In this document: positions 5,634 through 53,600 of the stretch, piece after piece
Layout of the letters: every line of letters begins with the position of its first letter
Position numbering within the stretch: the stretch's first letter is position 1
NCBI GenBank assembly: GCA_020152595.1
Contig: JAIGNY010003184.1
Location: 275,501 to 339,500 of the forward strand
Source of the DNA: Chiridota heheva
Taxonomy: Eukaryota > Echinodermata > Holothuroidea > Apodida > Chiridotidae
Reading direction: 5' to 3'
DNA: 64,000 nucleotides
Translations under genes and position numbers: made by a program
Notes under the pieces: model-generated
Database searches by the model: none
Told to the model about the DNA's origin: nothing
The model's input: the letters and a program-made list of their open reading frames with translations, nothing else

Positions 5634-8600
5634 CTGAAACAAAGAAAGAAAAGTTTGATTACTTATCAGAATAAACATCTTAGGAGAAGAGGTGAGGTTA
5701 CACATGGTCATTTGAGTGAGATAAGGTTACCCATGGTAGCTTGAGAGAGGTATGGGTGCACACAATGATTCGAGTGAGGTAAGGTTACCCATACTGCTTT
5801 GAGTGAGGTAAGGTTACCCATAATGGTTTGAGTGAGGTAAGGTTACCCATGGTGGTTTGAGTGAGGTAAGCTTACCCATAATGGTTTGAGTGAGGTAAGG
5901 TTACCCATGGTACTTTGAGTGAAATAAGGTTACCCATAGTCGTCTGAGTGAGGTAAGGTCACCCGTAATGGTTTGAGGGAGGTAAGCTAACTCATGGTGG
6001 TTGGAGTGAGGTAAGATTACCCATAGTGGTTTGAGTAAAGTAAGATTACCCATAGTGGTATGAGTGAGGTAAGGTTACCCTTGGTGGTTTGAGTGAGGTA
6101 AGGTTACCCATAGTGGTTTGAGTGAGGTAAGGTTACCCATAATGGTTTGGGCGAGGTAAGATTACTCATGGTGGTTTGAGTGAGGTAAGGTTACCTATAA
6201 TGGTTTAAGTGAGGTAAGGTTACCCATGGTAGTTTGAGTGAGATAAGGTTACCCATGGTAGTTTGAGTGAGATAAGGTTACCCATAGTCGTCTGAGTGAG
6301 GTAAGTCATCCGCAATGGTTTGAGAGAGGTAAGGTAACTCATGGTGGTTGGAGTGAGGTAAGGTTACCCATAGTGGTTTGAGTAAGGTAAGGTTACCCAT
6401 AGTGGTTTGAGTGAGGTAAGGTTACCCTTGGTGGTTTGAGTGAGGTAAGGTTACCCATAATGGCTTGAGCGAGGTAAGGTTACCCATAATGGTTTGAGTG
6501 AGGTAAGGTTACCCATAATGGTTTGAGTGAGGTAAGGTTACCCATGGTGGTTTGAGTGAGCCATACTGGTTTAAATGAGGTAGTGTTACCCATGGTGGTT
6601 TGAGTGAGATCGGTTACCCATAGTCGTCTGAGTGAGGTAAGGTCACCCATAATGGTTTGAGAGAGATAAGGTTACCCATGGTGGTTTGAGTGAAGTATTA
6701 AGGTTACCCATTGTGGTTTGAGTGAGGTAAGGTCACCCACAATGGTTTGAGTAAGATAAGGTTACCCACGGTGGTTTGAGTGAGATAAGGTTACCCACGG
6801 TGGTTTGAGTGAGATAAGGTTACTCATGGTGGCATGGATTAGGTGTTTCAGTGAGGTCCAAGTACACACAGTGATTTAAGTGAGGGCTGATATTCTGGAG
6901 CACATGGTAGTTGGAGTACGGAGGCATTCTACAAGAATACATTTGATGTTGTATAGAGGTGAGGGCAGAAGTGCACTGGCTCAGTGAATTTATAGTCATG
7001 TTTGTATGCGAAAGGTACCAGCTGCATTGTGTCCTTGAGCAAGACATTACTCTATTTGCTACAGTCCCTCAGCTATACAATGAGTACCAGCACCCTGTCC
7101 AGGGGGAATCATGCACTCTCATCTGCTTATGCCAATCAAACCAAAGATAAGCACCGGTCCTTCATGGACCATCATGACCCAAGAGAGGGTTTAACATAGA
7201 GGGGGTAATCCTACCTGCCACAAGAAGAACAGGCACTTTCTGCGGGTGTACCTCCATCTGACGTGCAATCCATTCACCATCAAAATGAGCATACCAGTAA
7301 CCTACATTTCCTGGCGAAGTCTGGAATGGAACTCGGAAAAACCGCTGGCCATTTTGACTGACAGGGGAGTCACTGGGGGAGGAGCTGAGAGTTGGTTGTA
7401 CTCTCGAGCTGTGGAGGGAAAATAAACGTATGAGTAAAATGATCCATTACTAGGAAAAGTATTATAGATCAATATAACATCGTGCAATACTAAAAAAAAG
7501 TGTTGTGTAATAATATAACATTATGCAATACTAGGACAGTATCATGGAATAATACAACATGCAATACTACTAAAGTATAACGGAGTAATAACATAATGCA
7601 ATACTAGGAAAGTATTATGGAATAATATAACATGTAATACTACTAAAGTATAACGGAGTAATAACATAATACAATACTAGGATAGTATTATGAAATAACA
7701 TAACATGCAATATTACTAAAGTATAACGGAGTAATAACATAATGCAATACTAGGATAGTATTATGGAATAACATAACATGCAATACTACTAAAGTATAAC
7801 GGAGTAATAACATAATGCAATACTAGGAAAGTATTCTGGAATAATATAACATGCAATACTACTAAAGTATAACGGAGTAATAACATAATGCAATACTAGG
7901 AAAGTATGAATAATATAACATGCAATACTATTAACATATAATGGAGTAATAACATAATGCAATACTAGGAAAGTATTCTGGAATAATATAACATGCAATA
8001 CTAGGAAAGTATTACAGAGTAATATAACATCATGCAATTCTGGTAACTTATTCTGGAATAATATAACATGCAATACTAGGAAAATATTACAGAGTAATAT
8101 AACATCATGCAATTCTGGTAACTTGTGACTTGAATTTTTATGTTTATCTTCCAAAATTAATTGCCTCTTTATAAATTATTGAAATTTTATTATGTTTCAT
8201 TATTGAGATATACAATGCATTCTGTTAGCATACCTCTTACACTCTCAATAAAAGAAAAATCTGTTTCTGTATTTATAGAAATAAACAAACAAAAAATCTT
8301 GGATTTGGAAGTATGACATCACACTGTACACTGTGATGTCACTTTTCAACCCACTGGTGAAATCTTTGAAATGCAACAACTCCAAAATGAATCAATACAC
8401 CAATATGGTTTTCCCCCTCGTTTATCCTCTTTAATAGCCCTCAATCACATATACCGTATTTGACGAATCAAGTGCCATAAGTACCCAACCAACATTTTTT
8501 GCCTGATAACATAATCTATTTAATTAATTTGAAGACTTCTTAAAATAAGTTTTGTTACATTATTTGCTTATTTTGCATCTGACGCTCACGATGTTTCTGT

Positions 8601-17600: not shown

Positions 17601-20600
17601 TAACCAATCAATCCTACCCAACCTTTGCCCAACATTGTTTTTAAGTTTAAAAAGTTGGTCTCCAAAATCAGATGTGCTTGCCTTGAAATTGAAGTCAACG
17701 AAGGTGGTTATTGTAATATAACCTATGAAGAGAGGTTCTGTCAGGTTTGCAATTTAAAAGAAGTTGGAGATGAATATCATTTTCTCCTAATTTGTCCATC
17801 CCTTTCTGAAATCCGCTGTAAATTTATCCCAAAATATTTCTTACAGACTGCAACTAGAACAAAATGTAATACTTTATTAGCAGCTAGTTCTAAATACTTA
17901 TTTTTGCAGTTATCACACTTTATTTTACACGCAATGGAAGCAAGACGTTTGTTTCTTTCTCTTTGATTATTGTTTGTTGTAAGAACCTCAATCATGTACC
18001 ATTTAATTTATCGTTAATGTTTGTGACAAAGGCCAGATGGCCTAGAGCACTGTAATAAATTGTATTGTATTGTATTGTATTGTATTGTATTAATAAATCA
18101 ATCAATCATTCCTTTTGAAATACTTATCAATAAATCCTTAACCAACCTTTGCCCAACACTAATAAAACAGTTGATCATTTCTTGCCCAACACTTAGAAAA
18201 CAATTCTTGCCCAACCTTTGTCTCTCTTCCTCTTGAATTCGTCTGAGTTCATCTTGCCTTTTGCGATCTTGCTCCAGCTTCTTCCTTTCTTCTTCCAATT
18301 GTTTCCGTTCTTCCTCAATCTTCCTCAGCATTTCTTCCTCCTCTCGCTTTCGTTTCGCTTCCATTTCTACTTTGCTGTTCAAAAAAGCCAAAATATCATC
18401 TTTTGTTGCTGCTTGCATTTCAACATACTGTATTCGACGTTTTAAGCACCCCTGCTCTAATAAGCACCCAACCAACATTTTGTGACTGATTACATAATTC
18501 ATTTGATTCATTTGAAAACTCAAAATACTACAGTTTTGTTACATTCTTTGCTAATTTTGCATCTGATGCTCACAATATTTTTGTGTATCTTATTGTGGGG
18601 CTGGTATATAACCAGTTCACACTTAAAAACAGGGCAGCTCAAATAGCACACTATGCGCACCCCCAAGCATGGGCACTTTTTAGGAATGTTGGGCCTAAAA
18701 TTAGCTGCAATTTTATTTTCGTAAGCACCCAGGGTGGTTATCACATCGAACACAGCACATTGTCAGAGCTATTATACCTACAATCTACTAGTACTTGGTA
18801 TTTTTACAATAAAAACATTCATCTTGCATTGCAAGTACATATGCAGTAGTAATTGTAGGGAGTAACTTTACACAAAAACCTATATTTTATAACGTTGTGA
18901 ATGTAAATGATTTTTTCCATCCATGTCCTAATTCATATTTTGATAAACAGTTTCTCTGCTAGCCACTATTGAAACTTCCAAATCGAGTATTATATCCCAT
19001 TAGTGCGGTTTACAGCACCTCCACGACTTTAAAAAGTACCTGGTAACTAACCGAAGATTCGGGAAACCAGTCAAGATGTTTAATGCTTTGAATACAATCA
19101 CTAAAAAAAATATAATTCTATATCTTAACCATGTTAAAAGTGTAAATAAGACTGCTGAAACTTATTCCTGAGATCTGTTTTATGTATCTATTAATATTAA
19201 AGGATTAGTTCAGGGTCAAGCATGTCCATCTTAAATAAAACAGGACTTAAAAAAAAAAAAAAATGGTGAAGAAAGCATCTAAAAATCTTATTTCGTTAAA
19301 AGATTAGTTCAGTGGTCAAGCATGTCCATCTTATATGAAAGAGGACTTCTAAAGAAACAAAATGGTGAAGAAAGCATTCAAATATTTTATTCCATTAGGA
19401 GATATTCAGGCTTAAAGTTTGGAAAGTTGGCATCTTCATCCTCACATTCTTAACAATTGTTAATGTAATTTGAATGTTTATTTAATTTTTTCACTTTTTA
19501 ACTTTCTTCAGGTGGTATATTATAAATACCCTTCCTAAATTCAGTTTTACTACTCTTTTTACACATCCTATGGTTTTTAAGCTACAAAATTGCAGGACAA
19601 AATATGATAGAATACATAAAGATTGAAAAATCTGAGGCTATGACATCACAACTAGTCTGATTTTAGTCGTTTCTACACAAAATGATACCAAACTTTATTT
19701 AAACTTAGATATCTCCTTAACGGAATAAGATTGTTGAATACTTTCTTCACCATTTTGTTTCTTATGAAGTAGTCTTTCATATAAAATAGACTTGCTTGAC
19801 CCCTGAACCAATCCTTTAATATGAGACATTTGCATATTTTGAGAATCTTGACTCATTTCTAATCTCCAAAAAAGTGACTATTGCAATGACATTTCAAAGT
19901 ACCACAAATATGTTTTAGGTGTAACTACTGTTAACAGCTTCTATTTTCAAAATGAATTTCTATTGTCAAAAAAGACTGGGATAAAGCCTTCTCATTACCA
20001 TTATACTCTATTTTTGGTACTTGATACACTATGTACCAGAATAGCAAACAAACATTCGTTAGCTATTCTGGTACGGAGTTTTGTAACTACCAAAAAAAAG
20101 GAGTATGATGGCAATGTGAAGCTTCATTCCAGTCCATTTTGACAATAGAAATCCATTTGGAAAATAAAAGCTGTTTGTTTATGAAGCAATATTGACGGAA
20201 CAATTATAACAAAATATTAACGAGATGAGCTTAAATAGGACTTCATCAATGATAATACGCTTGCAATGAAACCACTATGTTCATGAGCCTTGCTAGATGG
20301 GTCTGAAGTCTCCAGATACCACACTAAGCAGGGATTTGTCCTGGGGCTGCGGACGACGACACAATATGTCACCAACAACATGTCATTTTAGGTCTATGTA
20401 ATGATTCCCATCAGGCATTTTTCTGACTTATGTACAAAACTGTGCTACTGGTGATCCAATTTTGATACAATTTGGACGGAAAAATTTACTTTCAAAATGT
20501 ATCCAATTGTTTCTTAATTTTCTTTTTGAATAAACAAGTTGAAGGATCTGTCTCCCCCCCCCCCCCACCACCACCCACCCCACTCCCACACCTTACACCG

Positions 20601-26600: not shown

Positions 26601-29600
26601 GGTTAAAGCAGGGTAACTTACTCATTATTACATGTTTAATTTACTGGTTAGGGCCAAGTGATTTGTTTATTATTGCGATTTGTTTATTGCATGTATAATG
26701 TACATGATAGAGCCAGGGAATTTGCTCATTATTACATGTTTAATTTACTGGTTAGAGCCAGGTGATTTGCTCATTATTGCATGTTTAACTGGTTAGAGTC
26801 AGATGACTCGCTCATTATTACATGTTTAACTGTTTAAAGCAGGGAAATTGGCTAGTTATTGCATGTTTAATTTACTGCTTAGAGCTGGGCAATTTGCTCA
26901 TTAATGCTGTTTAAATCACTGAAGCTATGCTGCCATTCTCACACACATATATTTGCATGAACACACGTGGAACTTAGCACCAGACAGCGGCTGTGTTTAG
27001 TAACTGAGGCTTACATTCTGTCTATTTCTCATATAGGTTTTTTATAGCTATTGGAATTTATAACATACATCTTTGGAGGTTGATTTGTAGGTTCAGACAG
27101 TACCATGACAACGATGGTCAAGCTGTGTCAGAGAGATTAGATTATGTCAGAGGTCAAGAAGAGGATAAGAGGTGATATAAGAATGCTTCAGCTGATGTCA
27201 TGAGGTCACGTGACTTTGTTTACATCACCATTTTGTAGGACAAAGAACACTGTCATCTGCTGTGCACTTACATACGTTTGCATGTTGTTATATAAAAATT
27301 TTGTAAGATAATTATGTCGCAATCTTGCTGTGCTGTTGGTTGCACTAATGGACATGTTTAAAATCCACATATTAAGATTACTTGAAGTACTTGCAGGGTA
27401 ATTTTGTCTCTAAAATAACATTTTATATTAAAAAATTAAGTTATCTGGTCAGTTTTTTGACCAGTGTGTGTTTTATAAGTTTTACATGCCCAGAGCGTGT
27501 TTTCATCACCAGCGAGTGTTATTACTAGTAGGTCTGAGTCTGTTTGTTTAAACTTTTACGTGTGATGTGACTGAGCTGTGTGAAGATCAGATGCATGAAA
27601 CGCTCAACGAGCAAAGATTTTTGTTTTCCTGCAAAATGGCTTCCAGTTAAGTTAGAGTCACATGACAAGATCCCTCTATTGAGGTGAGCAGGGGGGTTAA
27701 GTACGGAGATAAGGAGGGGGAGGTCAGATTTTAATGCGATGCAGGAAGGAGAGAACTTTTTGAGGTGGGTCAGTGCAGAAGAGCTCGGTGATGGAGTTGA
27801 AGGGTTTAAGGGAATGTCTGGAGAGTAGGCAGTCTCTGAGGATGTGTTTAAAGGATTAGGTCAGGGGTCAAACAAGTCCATCCTATATGACAGAGGGCTT
27901 CAAGAGAAATAAAATAGTGAAAAAACCATTCAAATATCTTATTCCGTTAAGGAAATATTTAAATTTAACCTTAAATTTTCTATCATTTGTGTAAAAACGA
28001 TTGAAATCAGACTAGTTGTGACGTCACACTCTCAAATTTCTCACATTCCTTATTTTTCTATCATATTTTGTCCTGCGATTATGTGGCTTAAAAGTCATTG
28101 GATATGTCAGGTAAGTGATAAAACAAAATCTAGTAAGGGTAATTATAATTTAGAACCTGAAGAAAGTTAGAGGAAAAATAATTCTAATAGTAAAAAGGCT
28201 ACATAAATTTTCTTTAAAATACATTTAACAATTGTCAAGAATGTGAGGATAAGGATGCCAACCTTCTATAGTTAATTCAATACACCAGTCATGTTTACAC
28301 AGATAAGACAGTGCTTTAAACATTTTGTTCCTTGAAGTCCTCTTTCATATCAAATAGACTTGCTTGACCACTGAAATAATCCTTTAAAGGATTAGTTCAG
28401 TGGTCAAGCATGTTTATCTCATATGAAAGAGGACTTCAAAAGAAACAAAATGGTGAAGAAAGCATTCAAAAATCTCATTCCGTTATGAAGATATTTCAGT
28501 TTAAAGTATCATTTCTGTAGAAATAGCTGAAATCAGACTAGTTGTGATGTCACAGCCTCATATTCCTCAAAGTTTTTAGTATTTTAAAGAAAGTTTGTTT
28601 AATTTTTAAACTAATCCTTTAACTGTCAGTTGATCACAACAATTATTGGTGGGAGAAGTGAGCGTGAATAATTCTTTCATCAGAAGTGCTATACAAAGGT
28701 ATTTCAAGCCATGTGTTCTATAATTCCAGAAAACTCTCGCATGCAGAGATAAACTTGACTTTTCGATGTTTCCTTACCCGACAAAACAGCCTTGGATCGA
28801 GTGATGAGAGATCCTTTGGAAGGAACTTCTCATACATGTCATAGAGGGCAGCAAAGTGGGCTCTTGATGGGAATCCACCCTGCATGAGTTCCAGCACAGA
28901 AACCATTCCTGTAAGGGGAAAGCCAAAATCAACAATAGTACAAGAGATAACAGGGAATTCAATACAAGGAATTAAAATCAGTGAAACCTATAAACAAATT
29001 CCACTCCTATGTTTGTATTTCACTTTTAGGCATATGTCAAGGAAAGTACATGTAAGTCACAATGACTTATTTTTCCGTGTGTACCCAATGAATTTGCCAG
29101 GATGGAAAGTGGATGAACACCGGGTTAACACCCTGCTCTTTTCGAGAAGTGTTCAGAGAACCAGGCAGGAGGTGAAACTCATTACCATCGGGACCGGCAG
29201 CTTTATGTCTCCTCCAAAGGACGGTGGGTGCCACTCAACCATTGGCAATTTTTCACAAAGGTTAGGTGGGGGAAAAGGTGTGATGCAGAAGACAAACCTC
29301 TGCAATTGATGTCAGCATATATCATCCTGCATATATGTGGAAAAATCCCTGGTTAAATCTTTCCAGATCAGTACAATATGAGCTACATTATTCATTATGC
29401 CCTTACCAGAGCGCTACAATATGAGCTACATTATTCCCTTCCCAGTGCACTACAATATGAGCTCCATTATTCCCTTACCAAATCAGTACAATATGAGCTA
29501 CATTATTCCCTTCCCAGTGCACTACAATATGAGCTCCATTATTCCCTTACCAAATCAGTACAATATGAGCTACATTATTCCCTTACCAGAGCACTACAAT

Positions 29601-32600
29601 ATGAGCTACATTATTCCTTACTAAATCAGTACAATATGAGCTACATTATTCCCTTCCCAGTGCACTACAATATGAGCTCCATTATTCCCTTACCAAATCA
29701 GTACAATATGAGCTACATTATTCCCTTCCCAATGCACTACAATATGAGCTCCATTATTCCCTGACCAAATCAGTACAATATGAGCTACATTATTCCCTTA
29801 CCAGAGCACTACAATATGAGCTACATTATTCCTTACTAAATCAGTACAATATGAGCTACAATAATCTCTTACCAAATCAGTACAATATAAGCTACATTAT
29901 TCCTAACTAGAGCATCTGATATTCATACCTGGATGTTGACAAGTAGTCTGAAGCTCAAATGATGATAAAACGGAATTGATCATCTTCTCATCCACTTATC
30001 ATAGGCATAAATATGGATTGCATAATATCTCACTGCAAGTTGGCACGGTTGCAGTCCTTGGATCTGACTATATCAGGAACCTTGGGGCCTATTTTGATAG
30101 CAGTTTATCAATGTCTAAACATGTGAATCAGGTGTGCAGCAGTGTAAACTTCCACTTATGGCAGCTGCGTAAGATAAGGCCTTATCCTACTCATGATGCA
30201 TGTAAGTGTGCTGTTCAATCACTGGCAATCAGCAGAATTGATTATGCTTCTGGTTTACTGAGTGGTTTGTCAGGTGGCCTGTTAAACAAACTTCACCTTG
30301 TTCAGAATACTGCTGCAAGACTGATCTCTGGCATAAGTATAAGATCTCATATTACTCCTATAATTTCCCATTTGCATTGGCTCAGAGTACAGTCACGAAT
30401 TAGGTTCACAAAATTTTAAAATTCTACATGGTCTTGCACCAATTTATCTGTCTGAATTAATTCTTCTGTATGTCCCAGATCCCAGACTTAGGTCTGCCTC
30501 TAATGGCCCACTGATAAGGAGACAGTATGGTAGCAAACAAGTTAGTCGTTACAACTTTGCTGTCACTGGATCATCTCTCTGGAATGAGCTGCCTGTCCAC
30601 ATCAGATCTGCAAGTGACATTATCAATTTCAAAAGCAATTGAAAACACACCTCTTTACCCAATAATGTAAAGGGCTTAGTTTTGTTCTCAATATAAGTGC
30701 TATATAAGCATCTACATAATAATAATAATAATAATAATTATAATGAGCTACATTATTCCTTACTAAATCAGTACAATATGAGGTACATTATTCTCTTACC
30801 CGAGCACTTAAATATGAGCTACATTATTCCCTTACCAGAGCACTACAATAGGAGCTACATTATTCCCTTACCAAATCAGTACAATATGAGGTACATTATT
30901 CTCTTACCCGAGCACTTAAATATAAACTACAATATTCCTTTACCAGAGCACTACAATATGAACTACAATATTTCCTTACCAGAGCACTGCAACTGGCTGA
31001 GAATCTGAGCCCCTTCGAAGGCACTGTGCACCATTTTCTCATTGGGCTTGATGCAGCGGATGAATGATGAGCCAGTGCTCTTGAGTTTTTCCATTAGTTT
31101 TTGGAGTTGAGTCTGATTGAAGAAAGGGAGAAGTATATGTAGTACTTTTTGAAATCAAGGAATTTGGCATTTTATTATATGCCAAGGTTTACTTAAAGGC
31201 CAGATATTGTGTTAACATGGACAGTAAAATACAATAAAAGTCAACGTTTCTGATTGGTCAAACACAAATACTGATAACCAATCAATAACAGTTGTTTTGC
31301 ACATGAGGCATATGCCAGGAAAAGCACACGTAAGTCACAATGACTTGTTTTCAGTGTGGACCCATGGAATTTGCCAAGATGGGAAGTAGATGAACACCGA
31401 CTGGGTTAACACCTTGCTCTTTTCGCCGCAGAGATGACTAGCACACTGTACATAAACACAATGTGTACAGTACGTACTTAATTAGAAACGACCCACAACC
31501 GGTTGTGACATGAAATATATGAACATCACAATTTTACTGAGTTTGTTTGTTTGTAGAGGCTTGACGTCACCATGACAACAAAGGTCAAATTGTGCCCGAG
31601 AGATTAGATTATATAAGAGGCAGGAAAAATATTAGAGGAATCATCTGAGAAAAGGTTGAAAGTCAATAGACATGAAGCTATGATCATTAGAGAAAGTGCA
31701 ATAGGTAAAAAAGCATGGAAGCAATACAGGGGGGTATGATGAAGAAAGGAGATCATTTTATCTGGGGAGTTTTTGTGGAAGAGCTCCAGAATGGAATTGA
31801 AGGGAGTAAAAGAAGCTCTGGGAGGATGTACAGGGGGCGGTAAACGAGGATATGATAGACAATAAGGATGCAGTAGCAGTTACTGCAGAGGGGTGGGGGA
31901 GCCTCTAAGGGGGTGGGGGAGCCGCTAAGGAGGTGGAAGTGTGAGGTGGGTGTGGCCAATGCTGAGATGAGTAATGTGGGCATTGTCTTTACGAGACAGA
32001 TTGAATTTTACTGAGATGAGATTCCCTCTTGAAGTATTGCACTGCACCACTAGTTTGCAATTCTAAATGTCACAAAAACACCTCGGATCCATGAATATAC
32101 TAATTTTTCAAATCAAGTTCCAAACCTTTTCAAGCATTTCCCATATGTTTTTATGATTTGTAATTGAAGATTAGTTCAATTAATTATCTGAAAACAATTA
32201 AGATTTCAATAGAATTTCACAGAGATAAAAAATGAATGAGAAATCTGAAGCTTATTAAAGAAAAAAAAAGAAAAAGCTTCTTAACTTGAACAAGTATAAA
32301 TTGTGATTGCCAACATGGATATACCATAGAGCACATGACTTACCTTGAACTTGGAGCCGACACTTTCAAAGGTGAGCTTCTGGACTTTCTTAGAGTTGTT
32401 TTCATTTGCTGGAAACAGTTTCCTGAAGAATGGGTTCTTGCTTTCCTGTAGCAGATCCTCCAGAGAAGCATGCAGAGCATCATTGTTCTTGTCTATAAAT
32501 TCTTTCTGTTGATGTAAGGTAGGCCAAAAGTTTATTGAAAAAGATCACACCATGCAAAATAACATGCTGTATATTTCACATACAGGGAGAGATGATAAGG

Positions 32601-35600
32601 GTATAAATATGGTACAATAATATTAGGATGTTTAAAGGATTAGTTGAGGGGTCAAGCAAGGTCATCTAATATGAAAGAGGACTTCAAAACAAACAAAATA
32701 GTGAAGAAAGCATTCAAATATCTTATTCTGTTAAAGGATTAATTCAGTGGTCAAGCATGTCCATCTTATATGAAAGAGGACTTTAAAAGAAACAAAATAG
32801 TGAAGAAAGCATTCAAATATCTTATTCTGTTAAAGGATTAGTTCAGTGGTCAAGCATGTCCATCTTATAGGAAAGAGGACTTCAAAAGAAACAAAATAGT
32901 GAAGAAAGCATTCAATTATCCTATTCCGTTAAGAAGATTTCAACTTTAAAGTTTGGTATCATTTGTGTAAAAACGACTGAAATCAGACTAGCTGTGATGT
33001 CACAGCTTTAGATTTCTCAAAGTCTTTATGTATTCTACCATATTTTGTCCTGCGATTTAAGGGCTTAAAAACAATTGGATATGTCAAGAAAGTAGTAAAA
33101 GCAGAATCTAGTAAGGGTATTTGTAATATACCACCTTAAGAATGTTTGAGAAAAAATATTTCAAATAATAAAATAGTGAAATAAATTTTCTTTAAAATAC
33201 ATTAAAAATTGTTCCTAATGTGATGATGACGATGCCAACTTACCATAATAGTCTTACTACACCAGTCATTTCTACACAGATAAGACAGAGCTTTAACTTG
33301 AATATCTCCTGAAGGAAAAAGATTTTTCAATGCTTTCTTCACATTTCTTTCCTTTGAAGTCCCCTTTCATGTAAGATAAGACTTGCTTGACCACTGAACT
33401 AATCCTTTAACGCAAAATGCTAACAAGGTGCTTACCGTGTGATAGCAAACAGCGCCAGCGAAATGCCTGATGAGAAGACCTTCATCGTCCCGAAGATTCC
33501 TGTGATGCGTCAGTTTGGACTTCCGTGGGATCTACAAAAATACAAACCATATAGCTTAATGACTCGTAGCAAAGTAAATGACATCAAATAATGATATGAA
33601 CTGCATTTCAAGAACCAGTGTAAAGTGAGAAGAATCACAATCAGTTTTTGTAACATTAATTCATGAATATGCAGTGATTCTTTTGCGAATAACTTTTTTT
33701 GTAAACTACCCTATAATCGAATATTTGTATGTGATATGATCACCACACCAGAGATGGTCTCTTTCGCCATTTCTTTACTCTTAACATTTCGACCAAGTGG
33801 ACATGTTTTTCTTCACGCAAGTATCGTCAGAAGGAACACCTTATTCTGCAAGTGTTTAACTTCGTATTTGAAATAAAATGACTATATCATTCATGAACTT
33901 CAATAAGCAAAGAACAAACCTGGAAAAAATATATAATTCCAGCAATTATAACCATGGGGAAAAATGTGAATATGCGGGAGGCAATTTTTTCTTCATTTAT
34001 ACATTTCTTGAGTAAGCGACGGGTATATGTGGTGAATATGTGCTCTAAACTTCACCCATGTAATTTTGCGATAAAAAGTACATTAAATTGTGAAAGAGGG
34101 AAGCATATACAGATGTATTTACTACATTAATATTACTTCTGTTACAATTTTTTGTGAAAAGATTTTCAGACCATGGGAATTGTTTTAATTAATTCCAATT
34201 CTGTATGTTGTAAGCCGCCTAATACCGCATATAACAATAGAGGGCAGCATTTTGGAGAACAGTAACTTAGCAATTCAACAAACCTTTTGGTAAGTGCACC
34301 ATTTTATCACTAGGCTCACCAAGGACACAAAAACTATGTTTGTTATAGTGCCACCAAAGGGGTTACTGAATTCTTCAACTACAAAACTACAGAGGTGAGG
34401 AAAAGAGTGGGGCAGGGAGAACTGCCCCCCTCCCTTCCCTGAGAGGATTATAACTTCCTAACATTAAGAAATTATTAGCATAAAATTGAAGGAAAATTTG
34501 GTAAAATTATTGAAACTGATTAAATTGGCAATTCCCAATATTTCTTGATAATTAAAGAAAATATTCTGAAGATGAAGGAAAATTGAATATTTGCGATAAG
34601 CAGCAACGTTCGATGGAAACTTAATTTACCAGTGCAAATTTGGCCAGAAAGGAAAGAGGGGGTCTTATTCCCTGTCTCTGAGTGGTAACCTTCCAATGCC
34701 CCTTCAGTAAATTTCTTGAGTATGTAACAGAATATGTGGTAAAAGCTCAGGTTTCGGCCGCAATGTTTCGGATTCATTGCTCTCAAAAGCAGGCCCCCTT
34801 TCTTTCCTCCATGTCCATAAATTTGTGCAATGAATAGTACAATAGTACCAAAAAGGGAACATGTGTGGTAAAGTGTAAGCATACACAGATGTATTTACAG
34901 AATTAATATGATTTCCTTCACGATTATTTTGGGGAAGATTTTTGACACCTTTATTCCGAACCGTGGGAAATTTCATACTTAATTCCAACACTGCATATAT
35001 CACAAACGGTACATGAAGCAACCTATGAATTTCAAGGGTCATAGGTGAAACCACTTACAGTGAGCCTGAAGTGTGTCTTGTGCTTCTGGTGCACCGTGTG
35101 AGTGAAGTTGTTTGGGCTGGCCTTGGGCAGCTTGCTTTCCTCATCCAGCAAGTCCAGGATGCCATGCTTGGCCTCCACCAGATCTGAAACAACAACAACA
35201 ACATCATCCTCACTCGCACATCTAATCTGCATAACATTAAAAATAACATTAAGATAACAGGAAGATCTGACATGGCAGGATTGCACAGACCATGGTCTGT
35301 CTTGTAGTGATAATTACCTGATTTCATCGTATAAAGTCTAATCCAGTGATAGTGATAATTGTCTGATTTCATAGTGTCAATTGTCTGATCTGGTAGTGAT
35401 AATTGTCTGATTTCATGGTGTTAATTGTCTGATCTGGTAGGGATAATTGACTGATTTCATGGTGTTAATTGTCTGATCCAGTGATAGTTATAATTGTCTG
35501 ATTTCATGGTGTCAATTGTCTGATCTGGCAGTGATAATTGACTAAATCCATGGTGTTAATTGTCTGATCTAGTGATAGTGATAATTGTCTGATTTCATGG

Positions 35601-44600: not shown

Positions 44601-47600
44601 CACATAACCTGAAATGGTAGAAGTTCTGCATGCAGTATGAAACTTGAACAAGCGTGACAACAAAATCACACAACAAATAACAAAGATATCACTTGTGAAA
44701 CAAAATCATGTCTAAAAATAATAAAATATCGTATTCAACATATTAGGCACCCTAATGCCCCAATTAACCTTTCCAGATTTCCAAATAGGCCACGCCCACC
44801 ATAGCAACGCGGTAACTATGTTGGGCAAACAAATCTCAAATCCGCAATTCGCAATCGTGCATACCAATATGTTGACATTTTGGTGTTCGCAAGGCCTGCC
44901 GCAAGCTTTAATTCATTTATCGCAATTCTCCGGATCTTTAGAGTTTTTAGTAAATAGGGTAAATAAAATTCACTTTGCTAACTGTTCTGGGTAACAACAA
45001 TCAGAATTATAAAGCCTGCAGCGGGCCCGTAAGCGCAATTTTTGTTCACCATTTTGCTGTCACTCAGTCTGTGTGTGCAAAAATGTGTGAAGTGATTGGT
45101 TAAAACAAGCTGTCAATCATTAAATCCAGAAAGGTTAATTAGTGCCTACCCAACATTTTTTGACCGATATCATTTGAAGACGTAAAAATATGTTTTGTTA
45201 CATCATTTTGGATCTGACGCTCACCATGTTTTTGTGATGGTTATTGTGAGGCTAGTACAGAACCTGTTCACACAATGCAGTTCTAATAGCACACTGTATG
45301 CGGACCAGAGCATGGGCGCTTATTGGGAAGACACAGAAGCAATTCTATTTGGGGCGCTTATTACGTCGAATACGGTAGTTTTAAAAAGCGGACCTCTTTG
45401 AAATATATCCATGCGAATTATTGGGCAGTAAGTGGCATACTACCATTTTGTATAGGAGGAGTAATTATAATGCACTATTATATCAATCACGCTATCTCCG
45501 AAGTGTTCAAGTGACTGGTATATAAATCTATATTTCTATCCAAAAATTGATCTATCAGATGAAATAGATACTTGTCTGTAAATAATATGCTATTTTCTAA
45601 TACCTATTCACAATATAAAATGTTTTCAATAAGTCTTCAGTATGATTGAGAGTTTTTTAAGGAGTCACTGGATGTTGATTAGGCTTGGTAAATCAGTCAC
45701 TCTGAAGAATCTTTTGTAAGCTTTGCAAACTTTTGTAAGCTTTTTAAGGCCATTTTTACTTCAGGGTCAAAGTTTGTGAATACTCATCTTATCACTTTGT
45801 GCTGTAAGAGCTCTAACATACTTAATGATAATATAGCACAAATACATTACTGTATCCTAGCTCCGACATACAAGATAATAATATAGTACAACTACATCAC
45901 TTTAACAAATCATGCTGCTTGAGCTGTGAGCCGGCACGGTGCTTGAGGGTAACGACAATGATAGTAGACTTTATTCAAAAGGTAAACTTACCACAAACAA
46001 TGAGAGACATTCCAAAAAAAAGGAAAGCTTAAAGATGAGTGGGTAATATAATCAACGCAATGCCACCCACACATTATTAGAGGATTAGTTTAGGGGTCGA
46101 CGAGGAGTGAACACACAATTACAATGACGGGGTCGTCGCCTGTGTATTTGGTTATGATAGAAACAAAGCTATCACGAAACGCTTAATACGACCCGGACAA
46201 GAACACAAGTACGACATACGGACAGACATAACATTGACAACCAAGTCAATGTCCACGGCCTTTGTTAACCAGTTGTGGTGCACTGCGTGTTCAGGAGTCC
46301 AGCAAGTCTATCTTATATGAAAGATGACTTCAAAAGAAACAAAATAGTGCAGAAAGCATTCAAAAATCTTATTCCATTGAAGGATTAATTCAGGGGTCAC
46401 ACAAGTCCATCTTATATGAAAACAAACTTCAAACAAACAAAAGAGTGAAGAAAGCATTTAACAATCTTATTCCGTTAAAGGATTAGTTTCGGGTTCAAGC
46501 ATCTTATATGAAAGAAGACTCCAAAACAAACAAAAGAGTGAAGAAAGCATTCAAAAATCTTATTCCGTTAAAGGATTAGTTCAGGGGTCCAGCAAGTCTA
46601 TCTTATATAAAAGATGACTTCAAAAGAAACAAAAGAGTGAAGAAAGCATTCAAAATCTTATTCCATTAAGAATGTATAAGTTTAAAGTTTGGTATCATTT
46701 GTAGTAAACCATGCCAACAAGCCAGTCTAGGTGCATGTACTAGTCTCAGATGATCCCTTCCCTCTTTTCTCTCAACTTTATCTTATATAAAACAGGACTT
46801 TAAAAGAGACAAAATAGAGATATTCAAATTTAAAGCTGTTTTATCTTTGTAGAAATGACTGGTATAATGAATTAGTCTACTATGGAAGGTTGGCACCCTT
46901 ATCCTCACATCCTTTACAATTGTTAATGTATTTCAAAGAAAATATATTTAACATTTTTCCTATTTGAATTTCTCCCTTCAAATATCCTTCAGGAGGTAAA
47001 ATAAAATGATCTTTCCAAGATTCAGTTTTGCTACTTTCTTGACACATCCAATAGTTTTTAAGATACAAAACCAATGGACAAAATATGATAGAATACATAA
47101 AGACTTTGAGGAATCTGAGGCAGTGATATCACAACCAGTCTGATTTCAGTCATTTCTACACAAACTTTCAAACTTAAATACAGTATCTCCTCACTGGAAT
47201 AAAATTTTGGAATGCTTTCTTCACCATTCTGTTCCTGTTGAAGTCCTCTTTCATGAAAGACAAACATGCTTGATCCATGAACTAATCCTTTAATGCAATA
47301 AGAATTTTACATGCTTTCTTCACCATTTTGTTACTTTTGAAGTCCTCTTTCATATAAGATGGACATACTTGACCCCTAAACTAATCCTTTATCTATCAAG
47401 CGCATTATCGACAGAAAAGGTTATCACTCACTGCAGCAACAGCTTCATAGACGGCAAAACTCGCAGTTTCACTGAACCATACTTTGCTTGTTTCAATTCC
47501 TTTCAACAGAAATAACACCAAATTTTAAACTTAAATATCTCCTAAATGGAATAAGATTTTAGAATGCTTCTTCACCATTTTGTTTCTTTTAGTGTCCTCT

Positions 47601-50600: not shown

Positions 50601-53600
50601 GGTCATTCCCGATGTCATTAATGCTCAGGTTGAAGAGAGTGGGGAGAGGATGCTGCCTTGGGGACGCCCTCTTCTTGGGGAAGTGCGGCTTGGAGGGTGT
50701 GGCCAATACGAACTTGGAACTGCCTGGGTGAGAGGAAGTTTTGAATAAAGATGGGGAGGTGGCCTCTGAGGCCAATGGTGTGAAGTTTCGGGTAATGCCG
50801 TATTTCCAAGTAGTGTCGAAAGCTTTCTCGAGGTCAAAAAATATGGCAATGAGGTGTTCCTTTTTGCAAAGGATTCCCGGATAAGCGGTGTCGGCGTAAT
50901 TAACTGGTCTAGGGTATTGCGGCGTTTTGGAAGCCGCTTTGGTGAGGAGAGAGGATTCTGTTGGTCTCGAGGAACCAGTTTAGTCTCTGATTAATGATCT
51001 TTTCCATAATTTTACAGAGACAGCAAGTAAGGGCGATGGGTCGGTAGCTGGTGGGGTCGGTGCTATCCTTCCCCGGTTTAAGGACGGGGATGACAATAGC
51101 TGTCCTCCAGATAGGGGGAAAGGAGTGTGAGGACCAAATGTGGTTGAAGATGGTGAGTAGGGTAGTGGTGGCTTTGATGGGGAGGTGTTTTAGAAACTGA
51201 TATGTTATCAATAACATCACAAATTCCTTGCCATCGATAAAGAAAATTGAAAACCGGAAGTGACGTTACAAGTACGGCGGCATTACGTCTGAATTTATTT
51301 ATGGGACGATACCTTTCCTTAAACCCGTTATCACATGTTTTTGCTTTTTAGCTTCATATACAAATGATGATGATAGAGTCTACATCAATCACGAGTTGTC
51401 TTCTGTTTAGCAAACACTTCCTCTTTTCATTTTACAATTTTGAAACATCTGGGTAAAATGCAAAAGGTTGATATGCCTAAGCAATCCTCACCACTACATG
51501 GTAATATAGACATGACTTGCATTTTTGTGAATTTCAAATCCTTACCTTGATCCAGAAAGAGGTAGGGTGTCACTGTGTGGGCAGGTCAGAGGGCACTTGA
51601 AATGTAAATAAGGGAGTAATCAATGCAACAAGTAGTGGGGATCTGTGACCAGCATGAAAAAAGGCAAAGCAATTCTCAAAACTAAATTTTTGTGAACAAA
51701 ATGTAGAGTGCTTAGTGAAAAGGGGTAGAGTGGAGGCAATGAGGGGTAGAGTGGAGGCAATGAGGGGTAGGGTGAAGGCATGAGGGGTAGGGTGGAGGCA
51801 ATGAGGGGTAGGGTGAAGGCAATGAGGGGTAGGGTGGAGGCAATGAGGGTAAGGTGGAGGCATGAGGGGTAAGGTGGAGGCAATAAGGGGTAGGGTGAAG
51901 GCAATGCAGGGTAGGGTGAAGGCAATGAGGGGTAGGGTGGAGGCAATCAGGGGTAAGGTGGAGGCAATCAGGGGCAGGGTAAAGCAACTCTGAAAATTGA
52001 AATTAGGAGCTTGGGTTTGACCTTTCTCTAGTTTCCAAAGTATTGTTTTACCAATTTTGAGTTCTAGGAATCAAATTAGTCTGATTTTTAGATAATTGCA
52101 TCCTTACCATCGCACTCTTTCTTTTGTCTGGCAATATCTTATCCGTCTCCTTGTTTGTAAAGTACTGCGTGTTGCCATATTTCATGTACTGAGAAAAAGA
52201 AAAGTTCAAGCAATAATGAGTGTGTCAATTTCACACATGCAGATACATTTTTTACTAATCTAAACATTTTTGGCCACTAAAACCTTTGAATTTCTTTTAG
52301 AAAGGTATGTTTGTTAGCCGAAGCTGTTCGTCCAAAGTATTGTATACCCCCATGATATTCATTGGGGTTGGTTAGCCTAAGCTAAGCTGATAGGCAAAAG
52401 TACTATAAGCTTGCATGATAGTCATCAGGGTTGCTTAGTCTAAGCAGTTAGGCTCGAGTATATATACTCACATGATAACCATCTGGGTTGGTTAGCCTAA
52501 GCTGTTAGTCTAAAGCATTATATACCCACATGATTGTCATCAGTGATGGTTAGCCTAAGCTGATAGGCTCAAGTACTACATACTCACATGATAGTCATCA
52601 GGGTTGGTTAGCCTAAGATTTTTCCTGACTTCATCTGGTGCACCTGCGCACAGGTAGTAGAATATATGATAGTTGCGTTCTCCTTTGTTCTGCCAGCACA
52701 CTCTTGGTTTCTCTAAGAGGTAATGAGACACATAGCCTCCCACCACCTCAGGCTGCAAGAAATTACAAAGAAATAAACAGTTCATGAACCAATCAATACA
52801 CATGCAAGTCCAAGACATACAAACCAGATATGAACAATAGGCAAAATGGTGCACCTTCGGGTAATTTTGAAGATACGAAGAGGCAGAGTTTGAATTAATT
52901 AACATCTCTGTGTTACAAAATCAGCCACTCCCACCATAGCAATGCGGTAACTAGGTAAAGGTAAACAAAGCTCAAATCCGCAATCGTGTATGACCAATGC
53001 ATTGACATTTAGATGTTCCTCAGGCCTGCCGCAAGCTTTGATTCATTTATGGCACTTCTCCGGATCTTTAGAGTTTTTAGCAAATGGCATAAATAAAATT
53101 CAGTTGCTAACTGTTCTGAGTAACAGCAATCAGATTTACAAAGCCTGCAGTGGCACAAATTTTGTTCACCATTTTGCTGTCACTAAGTCTGTGTGTGCAG
53201 AAATTTGTTTTGTACAGTAAACTGCATTGACTACATGAGTGCGTGTAGATATCTACCTATAATGTACCAGTATCGTGTAAGATATTTGCCCCACTTAGTT
53301 ATGCAGATTTTGATGCTAGGCAAACTCATGCGGTGATTGGTCAAAAAAGCTGTCAATCATCAAGCCCAGAGAGGTTAATTCTAAAACGGTTCAAAATAGA
53401 GGTGTGGAAAATCATTGTTCAGATTTTTGCAAGGTCTTTGTATGTAGTTTTGAGGCATAGCCATAGAAATAGATAAGAGGAGGAGGCTAAGTCCGATCAG
53501 TGAGTGAAGCCAAAATTTATAACTGAAAGTCATCAAAAATCTAAAAATTTCCTTGTTGACTCCATGACTTGTCCTTCTCCTGAAAAATTTGTGAATCCCG

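Follow-up and report, generated by a model that had tools for sequence, protein, structure and literature searches.

The MYO6 locus and the array at the end of exon n

The window analyzed here is a stretch of 64,000 nucleotides from the sea cucumber Chiridota heheva (contig JAIGNY010003184.1, positions 275,501 to 339,500; all positions below are counted from the first letter of the window), the minus strand of which carries the myosin VI gene MYO6 with a minisatellite at the donor end of one of its exons, denoted n. A tblastn comparison of a human MYO6 protein against the window identified 22 exons, and visual inspection added three coiled-coil exons, yielding 25 exons from 60743 to 5443. The joined reading frame is open through exon u. 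The 10 kb preceding the part of the gene in the window contain matches to two more 5′ coding exons (L005 4871–4758, 1689–1624), and hence exon n, named exon 14 in a preliminary description of this DNA, is indeed the 14th of the 25 exons mapped inside the window, but at least the 16th coding exon of the gene.

The minisatellite has a 36-bp period and, read on the minus strand, is flush and in exact 36-bp register with the end of exon n at position 30980, each unit comprising the equivalent of the last 13 exon and the first 23 intron nucleotides. Tandem Repeats Finder (TRF) reports the 36-bp period at 30743–30992 (7.0 copies) and at 29393–29903 (14.2 copies, with a 72-bp period as well); anchoring on the exon end yields 22 units, including the true junction, plus a broken unit beside an insertion. 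The distal segment shows a 72-bp higher-order pattern, with TGCTCTG/TGCACTG-type units alternating with TGATTTG-type ones. The preliminary description had assigned the whole interval 29365..30990 to the array and had it touching the exon with no gap. The contact is confirmed, the overlap including the last 13 nucleotides of the exon, and so is the 36-bp tandem structure, but approximately 830 bp inside the interval belong to an interspersed repeat. When the array DNA was searched in the assembly, the only first-look candidate was its own locus, and no second haplotype was seen.

One end of the inserted repeat is an ATA-type simple run (30716–30744). A search with its sequence (29920–30710) gave 332 first-look candidates, 40 of which were scored; all 40 matched, one being the copy in the window itself and the remaining 39 having 92–96% identity. 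By eye, its plus-strand translation resembles the end of a reverse-transcriptase open reading frame of a long interspersed nuclear element, and two translated pieces of it had no match in Pfam. Since the insertion interrupts the array, the array presumably predates it. Similar stretches (GTGTTAACCC ... GTCATTGTGACTTAC) flank exon n and the array at 31430–31310 and 29143–29035, and are probably copies of one interspersed repeat.

Probable origin by duplication of the exon–intron junction

Comparison of the true junction, TTGCAGTGCTCTG/GTAAGGAAATATTGTAGTTCATA, with the array consensus shows identity at 12 out of 13 positions on the exon side and 20 out of 23 on the intron side. Together with the flush position and the exact register, this identity supports tandem duplication of the junction as the likely origin of the array, as had been proposed in the preliminary description. 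The 36-mer spanning the border of exon n (14 exon and 22 intron nucleotides), compared with the next 600 nucleotides, scored 50; the same procedure applied to the other 23 MYO6 donors gave 40 for exon e and 12–25 for the remaining 22. If only the last 30 nucleotides of exon n are considered and the register is ignored, the score is 21, equalled by two out of 300 shuffles; exon a, lacking an array at its border, yielded six out of 300 in the same exon-only test. By itself, the exon-only similarity of exon n, among 24 exons tested, would thus be modest evidence, and it is the exact register that carries the weight of the case. The sole exon-side mismatch to the consensus is CAG versus TAG, converting a glutamine codon to a stop, and as the exon is under protein constraint, the exon was likely the founder of the array.

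Decoy donors and read-through

Donor strength was estimated with a matrix built from the other 23 donors of the gene, and U1 duplex energies were calculated for the 5′ end of U1. The true donor of exon n has a score of 8.8, in the middle of the range of the true MYO6 donors (4.0–12.3), and a duplex energy of –8.5 kcal/mol. At the donor position of the 21 downstream units, GT is found in 16, GG in four, and GA in one. According to the preliminary description, unit after unit contains TGCTCTG/GTAAGG or a one-base variant; this holds for five out of 21 decoys, the other 16 differing by two to three bases. The score of the true donor is equalled or exceeded by six out of 21 decoys, and that of the weakest true MYO6 donor by 12; in units 30920 and 30812, the pairing with U1 amounts to –10.3 kcal/mol, compared to –8.5 kcal/mol at the true donor.

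Translated in frame, the sequence past exon n reads K-E-I-L-stop, and further in-frame TAGs lie within the array. The in-frame TAG shortly past the true donor had been correctly noted before, and the predicted consequence, truncation of the protein if a decoy is used, agrees with these translations. Across 16 full-length units, the donor columns have mean identity of 0.88 versus 0.93 elsewhere, giving no sign of selection keeping the decoys, although this test is weak because the units share descent.

A donor-like motif also occurs antisense to MYO6 in a 29-bp array at 5689–6832 (plus-strand unit GAGGTAAGG), about 56 nucleotides upstream of the last MYO6 exon.

Similar arrangements at exon e and at other loci

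The border-spanning array is not unique to exon n, as exon e of MYO6 is arranged alike (Table 1). The second array fills 70% of the 399-nt intron following exon e. The exon ends with ...GATGACTATCAT/GTGAGT at 52588, and the downstream donor positions read GTGGGT, GTGAGT, GCAAGC, and GGGGGT; the exon-only similarity has a score of 50, reached by none of 300 shuffles. A third candidate in MYO6, after exon r2 (end 18216; border score 25), was dropped, as the repeat there is intron-only: the weak donor AAG/GTTGGG of this exon (18240–18120) is followed by degenerate repeats of a GTGTTGGGCAAG-like motif.

Elsewhere in the assembly, 68 matches to the myosin head provided 28 loci for a survey and 120 kinesin matches another 30, two further myosin-head loci, outside the 28, being MYO6 itself. 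A donor could not be scored at four of these 58 loci, nor an acceptor at 15, leaving 54 donors and 43 acceptors. Exon ends were placed using the donor score and visual inspection rather than transcripts; a locus was flagged if the best of all its candidate splice sites scored at least 26, and the flags were checked by hand. Prior to inspection, nine out of 54 donors and three out of 43 acceptors were flagged; after it, six donors and no acceptors were accepted as having border-spanning duplications, with units from ~18 to ~320 bp. Among the rejected donor flags, the candidate GT lay inside an array in the intron, at a distance from the exon (L036, L039), or the array began a few bases into the intron and had no exon part (L045), whereas the acceptor flags (L025, L036, L058) were due to simple or intron-only repeats. 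Hence, border-spanning duplication recurs across genes, at MYO6 exons n and e and at six other myosin and kinesin donors.

Two of the surveyed loci may be described separately. In L017 (G000:C1206:44639–44845), the array downstream of a myosin exon ending with ..DLLLG is larger than that of exon n, with 38 GA[T/C]TTA motifs across 1.3 kb, 16 of which are exact GTGAGTTT. In L045 (G000:C3470:214591–214839), the array downstream of a kinesin exon is a near miss of the border.

Table 1. Arrays, exons, and inserted repeat at the MYO6 locus, and donor-spanning duplications accepted in the survey.
Feature	Position	Strand	Description	Basis
MYO6 exon n	30980..31112	–	133 nt, ...QLQCSG, phase 1 end	tblastn, reading-frame continuity, PDB myosin VI match
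True 5′ splice site of exon n	30971..30979	–	Context GTAAGGAAA right after exon-end CTG	
Proximal array segment	30743..30992	–	True junction and six units of 35–36 bp, 13 nt inside the exon	TRF, unit list
Interspersed repeat splitting the array	29915..30744 (limits approximate)	+	~830 bp	Genome copies scored
Distal array segment	29341..29914	–	Broken unit and 15 anchored units	TRF, unit list
MYO6 exon e	52588..52752	–	...NPDDYH/GTGAGT; founder of the second border-spanning array	tblastn, sequence
Second border-spanning array	52308..52617	–	58-bp unit, 30 exon and 28 intron nt, ~5 copies	TRF, sequence
L010, donor-spanning duplication			Unit ~320 bp, 2 copies	
L011, donor-spanning duplication			Unit ~115 bp, 2 copies	
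L017, donor-spanning array			Mostly 30-bp units, dozens of copies	
L019, donor-spanning duplication			Unit ~30 bp, 2 copies	
L033, donor-spanning duplication			Unit ~45 bp, 2 copies	
L043, donor-spanning array			Unit ~18 bp, ~4 copies	

Donors, acceptors, and the density of arrays

In MYO6, border-spanning arrays are found at two out of 24 donors and at none of 25 acceptors; combined with the survey, the totals are eight out of 78 donors and zero out of 68 acceptors (Fisher p = 0.007, or p = 0.015 without exon n, which prompted the look), a post hoc comparison relying on hand-checked flags, in which exons belonging to the same gene are not independent observations.

These counts can be set against the general abundance of arrays. 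Arrays found by TRF cover 28% of the MYO6 gene. Repeats (score at least 34) include the edge 36-mers at two out of 24 donor sides and zero out of 24 acceptor sides, compared to 625 out of 2000 random intronic ones, and the repeat density in MYO6 reaches the background 60–80 nt from donors and ~150 nt from acceptors. At the survey loci, a score of 26, the threshold for flagging, is attained by 20% of 1450 random intronic positions; the raw donor flags (nine out of 54) are near this background, the six accepted donors do not fall clearly short of it (binomial 0.06), and the accepted acceptors (zero out of 43) are below it, with the reservation that counts after inspection cannot be compared strictly with raw ones. 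Border-spanning arrays are therefore no commoner than the array density predicts, and are rarer at MYO6 intron edges and at acceptors. This pattern is consistent with selective loss of most such arrays and survival of some at donors. The occurrence at eight donors but no acceptors suggests that extra downstream donors are better tolerated than extra upstream acceptors.

A tentative generalization, to which we give slightly less than even credence, is that donor-spanning minisatellites are systematic in this genome, occurring at about one out of ten exon ends and nearly exclusively at 5′ splice sites, and that the spliceosome routinely takes the exon-proximal one of several equal or stronger donors. 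If so, these arrays would constitute, outside amphioxus, a natural experiment in how 5′ splice sites are chosen, and selection at exon borders would act mainly against duplications of acceptors.

Arrays with similar units of ~99 bp (TTAAAGGATTAGTTCAG...GGTCAAGC...) occur at 19197–19391, 32632–32932, 46289–46669, and 47212–47391, the last one being oppositely oriented according to its consensus; these four represent a dispersed element with a tandem structure of its own.

Interpretation of the array

Taking all this into account, we consider it quite probable that the array at exon n is a border-spanning minisatellite of the type termed "mirage," born by chance over the donor and tolerated there without a dedicated function. 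The founding duplication would have been a chance birth of a minisatellite, by slippage, unequal exchange, or repair, in introns rich in arrays, and the array would have persisted as nearly neutral. The own donor of exon n, being the first after exonic sequence, would be the one that gets used, while transcripts leaking to decoys would meet the in-frame TAG and be lost by nonsense-mediated decay. The same layout is seen at exon e and six other donors, and therefore no MYO6-specific reason is needed; nothing unusual is implied for MYO6 itself. Given that the edge 36-mers are rarely in repeats compared to random intronic ones, the arrays at MYO6 intron edges are tolerated exceptions rather than preferred sites.

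Several observations weigh against this interpretation. Judging by their sequence, the decoys are competent, with six out of 21 equalling or exceeding the score of the true donor and two pairing more strongly with U1, so that strength does not guarantee their silence. In human IFI6, two downstream units of the repeat reportedly serve as donors (PMC4526556). Retention of GT in 16 out of 21 decoys is something that neutrality would allow, but does not demand. Finally, the scarcity of arrays at intron edges may come partly from the constraint on splice signals, and not from selection against arrays.

Two alternatives concern the reality of the duplication itself. It is extremely improbable that an unrelated intronic minisatellite just happened to finish at the exon and resembles it by chance: arrays are indeed very common in the MYO6 introns, and the exon-only similarity, given the number of exons tested, is only moderately rare, but such a coincidence is disfavored by the border-spanning score and by the 12 out of 13 exon-side positions fitting the consensus in exact register. 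Tandem arrays are prone to errors in assemblies, and hence the array could have been produced by collapsed or expanded repeats; we find this very unlikely, as the units differ among themselves, a distinct interspersed repeat interrupts them, and the gene contains 32 merged arrays, although the precise number of copies may nevertheless be in error.

The preliminary description had also suggested that the array could tune the definition of exon n or act as a poison switch. A switch, in which some cell types would take decoy donors and the in-frame TAG would lower MYO6 through nonsense-mediated decay, is in keeping with the TAG after K-E-I-L that every decoy product would hold, with the strength of the six best decoys, and with the use of repeat-unit donors cited for IFI6 (PMC4526556). 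Nevertheless, five out of 21 decoys have lost the GT, the donor columns are not preferentially conserved, albeit by a weak test, other exons share the layout, and the amphioxus mirages are reported not to disturb splicing (PMC3087553, PMC3902484); we regard such a switch as unlikely. A helper role, in which numerous unspliced U1-pairing sites in the intron would aid the definition of exon n or block premature polyadenylation, seems unlikely to the same degree. It would account for the retained GTs and for the 12 decoys that are no weaker than the lowest-scoring true MYO6 donor, but donor n, mid-range in strength, needs no help, the weakly U1-pairing donors of exons h, r0, and s have no border-spanning array, and arrays are scarce near MYO6 donors. 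Overall, with unconserved donor columns, a recurring layout, array-poor intron edges, and splicing reported as undisturbed in the published mirages, the functional claim is unsupported and disfavored, the poison switch in particular not being favored. Runs of near-identical donors beside an exon probe which features other than sequence define a genuine splice site, several decoys equalling or surpassing the true site in score.

Comparison with known systems

Mirages, that is, minisatellite-like tandem duplications of exon–intron boundaries, are described in amphioxus Adh3, BflGb6/BflGb9, TnC, and PGBD5, where regular splicing is reported to proceed undisturbed by them (PMC3087553, PMC3902484); in particular, tandem repeats at the splice borders of PGBD5 are described, with Adh and TnC cited, in PMC3902484. 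Structurally, the array at exon n is a mirage, as its units hold both exon-end and intron-start sequence (13 and 23 nt) and copies of the splice signal, GT being present in 16 out of 21 downstream units. Similarly to mirages, its units span the exon–intron border, and the splice signal is retained in many of the copies, though not in every one; the unit lengths overlap as well (10–72 bp in Adh3, as quoted in PMC3087553). There are two differences: all eight accepted cases in this genome are at donors, whereas the amphioxus ones include an acceptor border (BflGb6), and undisturbed splicing, a prediction for exon n, is reported in amphioxus. The assembly had no match to the GFP family (PF01353) in a search with no positive control, which argues weakly against an amphioxus as the host. 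Nor did it match COX1, a molluscan haemocyanin domain, an annelid linker domain, or an arthropod cuticle domain; GFP and these three domains were matched in none of the control genomes either, and the controls matched by COX1 are prokaryotes, so that none of the absences is proven.

Other systems resemble the array in part. In human IFI6 (6-16/G1P3), a minisatellite provides several splice donors (Turri et al., 1995, as cited in PMC4526556). As in exon n, the minisatellite is at an exon end and its units are potential donors; unlike it, two downstream units of IFI6 are reportedly used and generate mRNA variants, whereas products of the decoys at exon n are predicted to be truncated. In the potato RdRp gene, an intron was reportedly gained via tandem duplication of segments containing splice signals (PMC4974935); splice signals are multiplied by tandem duplication in both cases, but here the copies sit in an existing intron, and no new intron or exon is seen. 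The earthworm metallothionein gene has minisatellite-like repeats in an intron, the excerpt of PMC12783039 not stating whether they span its border. In the open-licence literature, we found no paper joining minisatellite, myosin VI, and intron.

Thus, the array at exon n belongs to an already known class of repeat, and it is the occurrence at donors but not acceptors in the sample from this genome, an unplanned observation, that is the part worth following.

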